A stretch of 38,000 bases of DNA, taken from positions 1 to 38,000 of the forward strand of contig CANIRU010000010.1 of NCBI GenBank assembly GCA_947470025.1, given 5' to 3'. Position numbers and translations under genes: made by a program. Numbering within the stretch: position 1 is the stretch's first letter; every line of letters starts with the position of its first letter. The notes beneath the pieces were generated by a model. That model worked only from the letters and a program-made list of their open reading frames with translations, did no database searches and was not told the DNA's origin. The stretch is from Chloroflexota bacterium. Its GTDB lineage: Bacteria; Chloroflexota; Dehalococcoidia; UBA2979. Of this stretch, positions 7,475-28,569 are shown one piece after another.

Positions 7475-8233
7475 CTAGACCTCGAAGCAGCGGCCCGAGG
7501 CCGCCGCCTGGACGTCACCCCCGAACGAGGTCGCCGCCTCGGACACCGCGAGCGCGCGGTCAGCGGTGTACCAGAAGTGCGACAGCACGAGGCGTTCCAC
7601 CCCCGCCTTCGCGGCCACCGCGGCGGCGTCGACAGCAGAGAGGTGCGTCGCGGGGTCGTGATGCCTCGGCGCGCCGCCGGCGAGGGTCGCCTCGGCGAGC
7701 AGGGTGTGTGCCCCCTCGGCGAGCGCGCCAATCTCCTCGCATGGCACGGTGTCCGAGGTGTACGCGAGGACGCGATCGCCGTCCTCGACGCGCATGCCGA
7801 ACGAGCGGATGCCGTGTCGCACTTCATGCGGGCGCGCGGTGAGCGTACCGAGGGCGAGCGGGACGCCGGGCTCGTACTCATGTAACGCGAGCGCGCCCTC
7901 CCAGAACGGAGTCGTGCTCGACAGCGCGCTCGCGAGGCGATCGAGGTGCGCGATGCCGCCGGGAGGCAAGTAGACATCGATCGGCCTCGCGTCCGCGACG
8001 CCGTAGGTGCGGCCGTAGCGGAGCGCGACCAGGTCGAGGTAGTGGTCGGGGTGCAGGTGGCTCACGACGATCGCGCGCAAGTCCTCCAGCGCGACGTGGC
8101 GCTGGAGCGGCCCGAGCGTGCCCGAGCCGCAGTCCAGCATCACGTGCGTATCCCCGGAAGACACGAGGTATCCGCTGCACGCTTCGCCCGGTCCGGGCTG
8201 CGACGCGCAGGAGCCGAGGATCGTCAACCTCAT
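7475..8233 (-). CDS. Metallo-beta-lactamase-fold hydrolase, candidate PhnP-like phosphodiesterase
   Basis: A 252-residue binuclear-metal hydrolase of the MBL/RNase Z-like fold. Metal ligands are visible: SHLHPDH (His59, His61, Asp63, His64), His140 in EVRHGI, Asp161 in YTSDT and His219 in LSHFWY. As last gene of the C-P lyase operon, nine bases after phnM, it is the obvious candidate for PhnP, which opens 5-phosphoribosyl 1,2-cyclic phosphate. However, it lacks the extra Cys-rich zinc segment near the N-terminus of E. coli PhnP and looks closer to YhfI/RNase Z-type proteins. The PhnP role is therefore inferred from position. Its nearest competitor for that job is the convergent EEP enzyme. 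Confidence 0.85.
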   Translation of the reverse strand: MRLTILGSCASQPGPGEACSGYLVSSGDTHVMLDCGSGTLGPLQRHVALEDLRAIVVSHLHPDHYLDLVALRYGRTYGVADARPIDVYLPPGGIAHLDRLASALSSTTPFWEGALALHEYEPGVPLALGTLTARPHEVRHGIRSFGMRVEDGDRVLAYTSDTVPCEEIGALAEGAHTLLAEATLAGGAPRHHDPATHLSAVDAAAVAAKAGVERLVLSHFWYTADRALAVSEAATSFGGDVQAAASGRCFEV

Positions 8234-8242
8234 CGCGCGAGC

Positions 8243-9457
8243 CTATCTAGTGGAGAGCGCCATCGTGCGCTCCTGCATCCGCTGCGCACGCCCGTCCGAG
8301 TAGACGACCGCGCCGCGGTACAGCGCGTCGTGCACCAGCGGTCGTCCCTGCTCGAGGTCGACGAGTACAAGGTCGCCCGACAGGCCCACCTCGACCCGCC
8401 CGCGGTCGGCGAGACCGAACGCCGCGGCGGGGTTCGCCGTGACCTTCGCCACCGCCTCCGGCAGCGTGCAGATGCCGAGCTCCACCAGCTTCGCCGCCGC
8501 GACCAGCATCGAGGGCGTGTGGTAGTCGGCACAGATGATGTCCGCGAGGCCCTCGCGCACCAGCTCGGTGGCGTCGGAGTTCCCGCTCGTGGAGCCGCCG
8601 CGCACGATGTTCGGCGCACCGACGGTGATCCACTCACCAATCTCACGCGCGCGGCGGGCGGCTTCCATCACGACGGGGAACTCCGCGATCGTGCAGCCCA
8701 GCTCGTGCATCGCGTCCACCTTCTCGGCAGAGTCGTCATCGTGCGAGGCGAGCACGAACGGCTGCGCGTGGTACTCGGAGCCCACGCGACCGAGGACGTC
8801 CATGACGGCCGTCCGGTCCTGCCGCGCCGCGATGCGCTTCTGGATGTCGGCATCCGCGTCGTACCCCGGGTCGCTGCCGTGGTACGCGGTCATCGTCTTC
8901 TTGAACTCGTCGAGGTTGCGGTATTGACCCTGCCCCGGCGTGTGGTCGTTGAGCGACATCGCCTGCACCGGCGACAGGCGAAGGGAGTCGAAGATCGCGT
9001 CGAGCGCGTCCGGCGTCCACACGTCGCAGCGGTGCAGCACCTGGTGATCCATCGAGGCGACCGAGCGGCTCTCACGGACGAGCTGCGAACGCAGGGCTGC
9101 CTCGTCCAGGGTGCGGCCGGAGCGCGGCATGTCCGCGAACGTCAGCGCGTGGAACGAGGTGGTAACGCCACCCATCAGGCAGCGGCGCTCGTAGTTCCGC
9201 ATCGCGAACAGGCCGTCGAAGTTCACGCGCGGCCGCGGGTTGATCTCGACCTCGAGGCCGTCGCAGTGGGTGTCGATCAGGCCGGGGAGCACGTGCAGCC
9301 GGTGGTCGGCGTCGATCACCTCGTCCGCATCGGACCACGACACCTCGCGGCACGGGCCGACCTCGACGATCTTCCCGTCGCGGATCAGCACGGCGCCGTC
9401 CTCGAGGACCGCGTCGGGCAGGACGATGTTCGCGTGGACGATGGACACACTGCTCAT
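8243..9457 (-). CDS. phnM: PhnM, alpha-D-ribose 1-methylphosphonate 5-triphosphate diphosphatase
   Basis: A 404-residue amidohydrolase-fold enzyme that removes pyrophosphate from ribose 1-alkylphosphonate 5-triphosphate, giving the substrate of C-P lyase. PGLIDTHCDGLE near 58-69 holds the metal-binding HxD-like motif. NDHTPGQGQYRN near 169-180, VLASHDDD near 233-240 and ICADYHTPSML near 311-321 are characteristic PhnM segments. Length is close to the usual 380 residues. The start overlaps the phnL stop (ATGA), indicating translational coupling, and the MBL gene follows after nine bases. Confidence 0.96.
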   Translation of the reverse strand: MSSVSIVHANIVLPDAVLEDGAVLIRDGKIVEVGPCREVSWSDADEVIDADHRLHVLPGLIDTHCDGLEVEINPRPRVNFDGLFAMRNYERRCLMGGVTTSFHALTFADMPRSGRTLDEAALRSQLVRESRSVASMDHQVLHRCDVWTPDALDAIFDSLRLSPVQAMSLNDHTPGQGQYRNLDEFKKTMTAYHGSDPGYDADADIQKRIAARQDRTAVMDVLGRVGSEYHAQPFVLASHDDDSAEKVDAMHELGCTIAEFPVVMEAARRAREIGEWITVGAPNIVRGGSTSGNSDATELVREGLADIICADYHTPSMLVAAAKLVELGICTLPEAVAKVTANPAAAFGLADRGRVEVGLSGDLVLVDLEQGRPLVHDALYRGAVVYSDGRAQRMQERTMALSTR

Positions 9458-22500: not shown

Positions 22501-24150
22501 TTAGGCCTCGACTCGCTCGGCTTCGTGAGCCGTGACGACCGCGGGGACGATCCAGTAGACGTAGGTCTCGGACATCGCGCGGACGAAGTAGACGTGGATG
22601 TCGCCGTCCAGCATGTGGCCAATGGTCGTGCCCTCAGCGGCGGCAACCGTCTGCAGGTCCTGGAAGCGCTTCACGAACACCGCGGACTCCGGGACCGGGC
22701 TGCCTTCCGCCACGTCCACCATCTGGTTCGCGTAGCGGACGCGGATGCGGTCCGCCTCGCCCATGCGGGACAGCATCAGCGTCGACACCGCGCCGAGGAC
22801 CAGCACCAGCGTCGAGACGCCGATGGCAATCGCGGCCGCCTGCGGCAGTTCCCGGTACTCGAACGACAGGCCGGTCATCGGGACGACCAGGTGCCGTTCT
22901 GTCTCGCCGGTCACCTTTACGGTCGGCTTCTCGTCGAGCGAGAGCGCCGTCTTGCCGACGGTGGAGTCCAGCGACATCACGCGGTTGTTCATCGAGAACT
23001 GCATCGTCTGCTCGACGTCGCGCTCAAACGGGACGCCCGCCGTCGTGCCGGTCGCGTGAACCTTCGCGAAGACGCGCAGGGTGTAGGTGGTCAGGCCTTC
23101 CTGGATCTTCAAGGCCTGCTCCATCTGGGAGGCCAGCGCGTTCACCTGGTCCATGGAAAGGGTGCCCGTGCCGTGGAGGTTGCCCGTGAACGGGGTCTCC
23201 GCGCGCAGCGTGATCTCACGCTGCCACCCCGTCTCGTGACGAAGCTGCGCGACCAGGCTGTAGGTGCCCGCGACGTTCTTCGGCGCGACGTGGCCGTCGC
23301 CCTCGGCCAGCTGGTAGTCGTAACCGATGTCCACGCTGCGGGTCGCGCCGCGGATGATCGGCTGCGGGGCGACGATGCGGTTGCCGTCGTACAGGCCGAC
23401 CGGCGCGTCGCCGGAGTAGTTCAGCTCACCGTGCTCGGCGAAGGCGACCGCCGTCGAGGACGGCGTCGTGTAGCCCTGGCGTTCGACCAGCATCAGCAGC
23501 CCGGCGGCACCGACGATGGCGATGGCCGCCGCGGTCGCGATCTGGCTGCCGGTCGGGTGCGAGAAGGCGAAGACCTCGAGGCCGTGCGTCGCGGCGGGGG
23601 TGCCGATCGGGCGGCGCACGCGGCGCATGCCGCGGCGGATCCGCTTCGAGGAGGCGGCGCCGGCCAGCATCGTGACCAGCGTGATGGCAATCACGACCTT
23701 GGGGTTGGCCGCGTACTGGAGGTAGGTGATGCCGTTCGGCACCGTGAAGGAGAGGCCACCGACGACCTCGTTGTACGCCGGGCGGTAGGGGTCGACCGTT
23801 GTGCGGTTGTCTCCCTGGAAGGTCAGGCGGCTGCCGTCGTCGCCGATGACGCGGTGAATGACGACGCCGAGCTCCGGGCTGCGGTACGCCGCCACGTCGC
23901 CCACGCTCGGGCGACCGTCGTTGCTGACGAACGCGATGTCGCCGCGGTGCATGCCGGGCTCCATCGAATTGCCGTTGACGACCAGCATCGTGAGCTGGCC
24001 GCCCAGGGCGGGGGGCGCGAAGGCCACCCAGAGTGCGGCCGTGAGCAGCAGGGAGAACCCCACGCCCAGCGTCTTCAGGAGAGTCCGACCGCCAATGGTT
24101 CGGCGCGCAGCGCCTGCGGGAGCAGTACCGGGAGTGTCGTTGTAGGTCAC
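22501..24150 (-). CDS. SipW-type signal peptidase I fused to a DUF5305-like region
   Basis: A 549-residue membrane protein. Residues 1-165 form an archaeal/ER/SipW-type signal peptidase I: membrane helix about 27-49, GNSMEPGMHRGD with nucleophile Ser62, VIHRVI with His99 replacing the usual Lys, and FQGDNR. After two further hydrophobic segments, a long extracytoplasmic region (about 235-440) and a last membrane helix near 443-465 resemble the DUF5305 architecture known mainly from archaea. A cytoplasmic tail of about 80 residues follows. GTG 24150 has GAGGTAG upstream. It is flanked by two exported proteins, which are its likely substrates. The extra domain may hold or present the cargo (inference). 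Confidence 0.8.
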   Translation of the reverse strand: MTYNDTPGTAPAGAARRTIGGRTLLKTLGVGFSLLLTAALWVAFAPPALGGQLTMLVVNGNSMEPGMHRGDIAFVSNDGRPSVGDVAAYRSPELGVVIHRVIGDDGSRLTFQGDNRTTVDPYRPAYNEVVGGLSFTVPNGITYLQYAANPKVVIAITLVTMLAGAASSKRIRRGMRRVRRPIGTPAATHGLEVFAFSHPTGSQIATAAAIAIVGAAGLLMLVERQGYTTPSSTAVAFAEHGELNYSGDAPVGLYDGNRIVAPQPIIRGATRSVDIGYDYQLAEGDGHVAPKNVAGTYSLVAQLRHETGWQREITLRAETPFTGNLHGTGTLSMDQVNALASQMEQALKIQEGLTTYTLRVFAKVHATGTTAGVPFERDVEQTMQFSMNNRVMSLDSTVGKTALSLDEKPTVKVTGETERHLVVPMTGLSFEYRELPQAAAIAIGVSTLVLVLGAVSTLMLSRMGEADRIRVRYANQMVDVAEGSPVPESAVFVKRFQDLQTVAAAEGTTIGHMLDGDIHVYFVRAMSETYVYWIVPAVVTAHEAERVEA

Positions 24151-24217: not shown

Positions 24218-24613
24218 TTACTGGACCAGGAGCACGTCGAAGGTGGTGGTGCCGCTGACCGTCTCGCCCAGCGTGCTGCCGTTGTTGCAGTTGATGGTCC
24301 ACGGGCTCACCGATCCCGTGATGCTGCAGCTCTTGTACGCGCTGGAGAGCTTCACCTTGGCCGTGCCCGGGATGACCGCGCCGGTCGCCGTGAACGAGAC
24401 CGAGTCGATGTTCGCCGCGTTCGTGGCGTTCAGCGTGTAGGACGGGGCCGAGATGGTGTACCCGGATACCGCCTGCGAGTTCTGACCGGCGACGTTCGTC
24501 GCGGCGTTGAAGGTGTTCGACGTCGCGAACGCCGAGGTGCCGAGCGACAGCACGCCGATGCCGACCACTGCGGGCAGGAGACCGATGCGGCCGAAGATGT
24601 TGAGCAGGGACAT
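24218..24613 (-). CDS. Small exported protein, candidate SipW-type peptidase substrate
   Basis: A 131-residue protein with a long N-terminal hydrophobic segment (LPAVVGIGVLSLGTSAFATS) resembling TasA/CalY-type signals cleaved by SipW peptidases. The mature part is Ser/Thr/Asn/Ala-rich, beta-prone, with one cysteine pair (SCSITGSV...INCNN). ATG 24613 is preceded by GGAGG. It is the first gene of the operon, 67 bases before the peptidase gene, the arrangement expected for a dedicated substrate. By analogy with TasA it could form surface fibres, but no direct homology is visible. Confidence 0.7.
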   Translation of the reverse strand: MSLLNIFGRIGLLPAVVGIGVLSLGTSAFATSNTFNAATNVAGQNSQAVSGYTISAPSYTLNATNAANIDSVSFTATGAVIPGTAKVKLSSAYKSCSITGSVSPWTINCNNGSTLGETVSGTTTFDVLLVQ

Positions 24614-27819: not shown

Positions 27820-28569
27820 ATGTTGCGTCGCGCCGCCGGGCTCCCCGCCCTCCTTCTGCTGGCATTCGCCCTGGGCTGCACCGCGGCGGACGCCCCGGCG
27901 GCCGAGACCCCGGCTGTGGCTCGGACCGCGACGCCGAACGCCACCGCGACCCCGACCGCCTCGAGTCCCACGCCCACCCCAACACCCGCGCCGGAGCGGC
28001 TCGATATCCGCGCGAGCCGCCTCGCCATCCCGTCGCTCGGCATCGACGCCCCGGTGCAGGACAGCCGGATCATCCCCGCCTCGACGTACCCGCCGACGCC
28101 CGGCTGCCCAGCGCCGCCTCCCGACGAGGAGACGTTCACCGTCCCGAACCAGGGCATCGCCACCCCCATCGAGGCGATCGATGGCCTGGAGAACCGGTCG
28201 TGGATCTTCGGGCACAGCCGCTGGCAGAACACGCCGGGGCTGCTCTACTCGCTGCAGGACATCAACCTCGGCGACGAGGTGTTCGTCGAAGGCACAGAGC
28301 GCACCTCAGGGGCGCGGGTTCCTCGTCGGCGGTTCGTCGTCGATGGCATCTACCTGACGGACATCGACTCCGGGGGCACGCTGGTCGGCGGCGAGATGCC
28401 CGCGAAGCCCACGGTGATCCTCCAGACCAGCGTGCGGGAGGACGGCGGGGGAAAGGCGTGGCTGCTCGACCAGCAGAAGGTCACCGCGAAGGCCCGCAAC
28501 CTGATCGAGGGCGATGTGAACGATCGCTGCAAGTACCTCCTGCTCTTCGTCTTCGCCCGCGCCTCGTAA
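27820..28569 (+). CDS. Sortase-fold lipoprotein lacking the catalytic cysteine
   Basis: A 249-residue exported protein. The signal LPALLLLAFALGC has a lipobox-like ALGC, so Cys20 may be lipidated. A Thr/Pro-rich linker follows to about residue 60. The rest resembles class D/E sortases: LAIPSLGIDAPVQ near 69-81, WIFGHSRWQNTPGLLYSLQDINLGDEVFV near 128-156 with the conserved GH histidine, and a beta strand TVILQTSV where active sortases have TLxTC. Cys is replaced by Ser, so transpeptidation is unlikely by the usual mechanism. The catalytic Arg position is unclear. It may be a degenerate or binding-only sortase. No clear ribosome site precedes the ATG. Confidence 0.7.
   Translation: MLRRAAGLPALLLLAFALGCTAADAPAAETPAVARTATPNATATPTASSPTPTPTPAPERLDIRASRLAIPSLGIDAPVQDSRIIPASTYPPTPGCPAPPPDEETFTVPNQGIATPIEAIDGLENRSWIFGHSRWQNTPGLLYSLQDINLGDEVFVEGTERTSGARVPRRRFVVDGIYLTDIDSGGTLVGGEMPAKPTVILQTSVREDGGGKAWLLDQQKVTAKARNLIEGDVNDRCKYLLLFVFARAS

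Follow-up and report, generated by a model that had tools for sequence, protein, structure and literature searches.

The gene examined here lies in a 38,000-nucleotide stretch of a Dehalococcoidia contig (the window, taken at its full length) and raises the question of what a sortase-like protein does when Ser stands in the place of the catalytic Cys. Sortases fasten bacterial proteins to the cell wall. In all described classes, their activity is said to depend on an essential Cys, which is part of a His-Cys-Arg triad and lies in a TLxTC signature (PMC13257024). The engineered C184S substitution in S. aureus SrtA is described as lowering activity dramatically in a passage of PMC4827206 that cites Frankel 2007, so a simple Ser replacement would be expected to cripple a sortase. 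No report of a natural Ser sortase was found in the open-access literature, which was the scope of the search. From the sequence alone, a first-pass annotation had proposed a lipid-anchored protein of sortase fold that keeps the GH histidine region and carries Ser at the active site, either as a noncatalytic binder or with Ser as the nucleophile. The features of the gene are given in Table 1.

Table 1. Features of the Ser-type sortase-fold gene and its product (positions are those of the window)
Feature	Position	Strand	Basis or conservation
Complete gene for the Ser-type sortase-fold lipoprotein (249 aa from ATG)	27820..28569	+	
Signal peptide with lipobox FALGC (residues 16-20), predicted lipidated Cys20	27820..27879	+	Sequence; Cys20 kept by all 7 aligned members
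Low-complexity Thr/Pro/Ala linker, approximately residues 21-58	27880..27993	+	Sequence; length differs between relatives
Sortase-fold domain, residues 59-249, approximately 190 aa	27994..28566	+	Profile comparison, predicted model, Foldseek
Cys96, within PGCP insertion; predicted disulfide with Cys237	28105..28107	+	In core members; absent from L027 and L028
GHSRW (131-135), end of beta-4, with catalytic-type His132	28210..28224	+	Invariant in 14 aligned members
QTSVR, closing beta-7; Ser204 in place of the catalytic Cys, Arg206 two residues later (Ser+2)	28423..28437	+	No change at Gln, Thr, Ser, or Arg in any member
Cys237, predicted to pair with Cys96 in a disulfide	28528..28530	+	In core members; absent from L027 and L028
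Lys238 (Lys or Arg in relatives), start of beta-8, at the place of the catalytic Arg of Cys sortases	28531..28533	+	

When the window protein was compared with sequence models of sortases, the Pfam model Sortase (PF04203) gave an E value of 0.054 (13.7 bits, below the gathering score of 26.6), and the NCBIfam model of class F sortases (NF033748) gave an E value of 3.7e-4 (20.2 bits, under the curated cut-off of 166). Across the 14 family members compared, PF04203 matched 12 at E values of up to 10 (best, 4.4e-6), and NF033748 matched 13 (best, 9.2e-7, with the top member reaching 28.6 bits). A search of the PDB by sequence returned no significant match. In a profile-profile comparison, the Ser family matched the Cys lipoprotein-type sortases with a probability of 96.9% and an E value of 1.3e-10 over its N-terminal two thirds, His included; the C-terminal third alone showed no significant similarity to the Cys sortases in this type of comparison. 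When the profile alignment was extended, the Ser of the family fell on the Cys of the Cys sortases. A class F sortase from Austwickia was misaligned when added to the family alignment.

AlphaFold2 produced a poor model of the window domain (pLDDT 57), yet sortases took all of the first seven places among its PDB matches. A model built from the same family sequences, with the query swapped for the close relative L002, was of moderate confidence (pLDDT 72.7, pTM 0.71); in it beta-4 ends at GH, QTS lies on beta-7, and an extra predicted helix lengthens the connection between beta-7 and beta-8. Using Foldseek, it was found that PDB ranks 1 to 36 for the L002 model were all sortases (E values from 2.9e-4, probability up to 1.00), with TM scores to PDB sortases of only approximately 0.4. 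These predictions support an eight-stranded beta-barrel sortase fold, with the His after beta-4 and the nucleophile position ending beta-7, and speak against a nonsortase fold. Of the two classes suggested for comparison by the first-pass annotation, D and E, class E sortases were among the top Foldseek matches, while the sequence matches pointed weakly to class F and not to D. The proposed lipoprotein anchor was supported by the FALGC lipobox, read as a pattern from the sequence, whose Cys was kept in all seven aligned sequences; a Thr/Pro linker follows it. Through a lipid on Cys20, the protein would be tethered at the outer face of the membrane.

The His motif of the window protein is intact (WIFGHSRW), as had been annotated, and the TLxTC signature is replaced by VILQTS, with VILQTSVRED ending the putative beta-7. 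In the 14-member alignment, the most distant sequences of which are 35 to 37% identical to the window protein, G131, H132, S133, R134, and W135, together with Q202, T203, S204, and R206, were invariant. Taking GHSRW and QTSxR as the expected active site, 9 of their 10 columns were invariant, compared with 25 of the 181 other columns (Fisher P = 6e-7). The spacing from His to Ser is 72 to 76 residues, against 69 to 74 from His to Cys in the Dehalococcoidia Cys lipoprotein-type sortases. QTS was present in all 16 members holding the region, so the Cys-to-Ser change proposed earlier is natural and the Ser is conserved in every relative in which it could be read. Its codon is AGC in all 16, one base away from the Cys codon TGC; as Ser133 of GHSRW is likewise AGY in every readable member, the constancy of AGC at Ser204 mainly shows continuity of the residue. 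From strand geometry, the invariant Arg206 would sit on the same side of beta-7 as Ser204. The residue starting beta-8 is Lys in all members but L028, which has Arg. Only two cysteines, Cys96 and Cys237, are present in the domain, and both are missing in L027 and L028, the two most divergent members, whose domains are cysteine-free. This joint absence suggests that the two form a disulfide.

To delimit the family, 84,980 species genomes were scanned, and seven clear relatives were identified, all in Chloroflexi/Dehalococcoidia MAGs, along with a truncated fragment under an Acidobacteria label and a single ordinary sortase of Actinobacterial origin. The Acidobacteria-labelled contig (L008, positions 1 to 503) starts with a fragment of a Ser-family gene that is cut before the Ser region, and the contig is probably misbinned or chimeric. 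Within the GTDB family to which the window belongs, profile searches recovered the Ser family in 16 of 44 genomes. Among 393 sampled genomes of the class, strong matches were confined to that GTDB family, and those weaker matches outside it that were read were ordinary Cys sortases. No Ser-family member was found outside it in a sample of 400 Chloroflexota genomes (E value of 1e-6), and scans of viral contigs added no further relatives. The Ser family is thus small, and the members found all fall within a single Dehalococcoidia family of the GTDB. One assembly (L007/L026; L007, positions 8001 to 8575) carries a frameshift between the His and Ser motifs, with QTS kept and both halves otherwise conserved, which reflects either an assembly error or recent decay.

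Against the nearest relative, dN/dS was approximately 0.055/0.449, or 0.12; this purifying selection argues against a decaying gene. With QTS found in 16 genomes as well, a sequencing error or a pseudogene was ruled out. The maximum-likelihood tree placed a single branch with support of 100/100 between the 14 Ser sequences, which form a monophyletic group, and 27 Cys sequences. One change of nucleophile would explain this division, and its direction is taken to be from Cys to Ser because Cys is the rule elsewhere.

Neighboring genes in the window encode an MFS transporter, a trypsin-like protease, and a MoxR/DUF58/VWA block. No conserved gene neighborhood could be identified, as the neighbors checked in relatives were mostly unrelated to each other; full synteny was found only with the close relative L001, and the trypsin-MoxR-DUF58-VWA block recurred in L001 and L006 alone. 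Elsewhere in the window, the gene at 22501-24150 (-) encodes a signal peptidase domain (S24/S26) to which a C-terminal region resembling DUF5305 (below the Pfam cut-off) is fused. It adjoins the gene at 24218-24613 (-), whose small secreted product matches SpaA_2 weakly; together the two products look like a dedicated peptidase paired with a surface or fiber protein. The genome of the window carries three further sortases over the cut-off, all of Cys type, with L012 among its Cys sortases. One Cys sortase of this genome (L011, 1501-1968, +) has an extra segment of approximately 75 aa past the sortase domain at its C terminus, in the same open reading frame. The cell probably makes peptidoglycan, since its genome encodes penicillin-binding transpeptidases. 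The LPxTG-like substrates that the first-pass annotation had suggested seeking did not materialize: no LPXTG anchor was detected over the cut-off (PF00746 and TIGR01167, models that may overlook LAxTG-type or novel signals) in this approximately 80%-complete genome.

We favor a catalytic reading, in which a lipid-anchored sortase-fold protein has had its active site rebuilt around Ser, with a probability that we put at a little under one half (approximately 0.47); a working Ser-His-Arg acyl-transferase or hydrolase is slightly more likely than a dead binder. Tethered at the outer face of the membrane, the protein would bind a peptide or a sorting-signal-like strand in the groove between beta-6, beta-7, and beta-8. 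Ser204, aided by His132, would attack a peptide or ester carbonyl, and the oxyanion role may fall to Arg206, on the same face of beta-7, or to Lys/Arg238 of beta-8. Acyl transfer or hydrolysis would follow, via an ester rather than a thioester intermediate. The more specific proposal, a natural Ser-nucleophile sortase that uses Ser-His-Arg, forms ester acyl-enzymes, and was fixed once in the ancestor of this Dehalococcoidia lineage, is held tentatively, nearer to doubt than to belief. Several points count against a Ser enzyme: no acidic residue is known to polarize His132, the canonical beta-8 Arg is mostly Lys, and neither a substrate with a sorting signal (over the cut-off in the genome searched) nor a conserved partner gene was found. 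The effect of C184S in SrtA, the nonsignificant match of the C-terminal third to Cys sortases, and the low pLDDT of the window protein's own model weigh on the same side.

The alternative to be taken most seriously, while still doubtful, is a pseudo-sortase, which would keep the fold and groove but not the catalysis. Anchored by its lipid, such a protein would bind peptides, sorting signals, or strands of the cell wall, and it might, for instance, serve the three ordinary Cys sortases that this genome encodes as a chaperone or regulator. The presence of these enzymes is in keeping with such a role, as are the change of the beta-8 Arg mostly to Lys and the absence of the Cys on which published sortases depend (PMC13257024; for C184S, the passage in PMC4827206). 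However, at a relaxed nucleophile position, variation to Ala, Gly, or Thr would be expected, whereas the Ser, the His, and the Arg at Ser+2 never drift across 16 members, down to approximately 35% identity. The unbroken retention of Ser-His-Arg is compatible with an active site rebuilt around Ser or with a site that uses these residues for binding. An unlikely alternative is that the fold has taken on another chemistry, as a hydrolase or esterase of a nonprotein substrate such as a cell-wall or glycolipid ester. Ser is a common hydrolase nucleophile, and both the helix-lengthened beta-7/beta-8 connection and the lack of sorting signals over the cut-off in the approximately 80%-complete genome would suit it, but neither esterase genes nor a cell-wall operon is conserved alongside the gene in the relatives whose neighbors were checked. 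An ordinary Cys sortase with Cys96 or Cys237 as its nucleophile, or a sequencing error at the Ser codon, is highly improbable and was rejected, for although core members keep both cysteines, neither is at the end of beta-7, the cysteine-free domains of L027 and L028 mean that no other Cys can be the nucleophile, and QTS recurs in 16 genomes.

The finding is thus real: in this family of sortase-fold proteins, the nucleophile position is occupied by a conserved Ser. If the preferred reading of a catalytic Ser is right, a natural family that keeps Ser, His, and Arg allows one to test how the sortase fold works with Ser; otherwise, it allows one to test what the sortase groove does without catalysis. 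In both cases it does so in a phylum whose surface assembly has been little studied.

Among known systems, class F sortases (NF033748) are the best family match for 13 of the 14 Ser-family members. Both have a single short domain and correspond over the N-terminal two thirds, where the GH histidine lies. They differ in that the Ser family scores 17 to 29 bits against the cut-off of 166, has Ser for Cys, and carries the predicted helix between beta-7 and beta-8 and the PGCP insertion with its predicted disulfide. The class C, A, and E sortases 2xwg, 2w1j, 5k9a, and 9j0t were the top Foldseek matches (probability up to 1.00), with TM scores of approximately 0.4 and 10 to 16% identity; the PDB matches of these classes are all Cys enzymes or mutants engineered from them. 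With the Cys lipoprotein-type sortases of Dehalococcoidia (L029 to L042 and L012), the Ser family shares the Thr/Pro linker, the spacing from His to nucleophile, and, in those inspected, the lipoprotein-type N terminus. Those at L029 to L042, from another Dehalococcoidia family, often occur as tandem pairs whose loops differ in length, with Cys-to-Arg distances of 14 and 17 to 18 residues. The Dehalococcoidia Cys sortases have TCGG and the beta-8 Arg at +14 to +18, whereas the Ser family has TSxR and Lys or Arg at +33/34.
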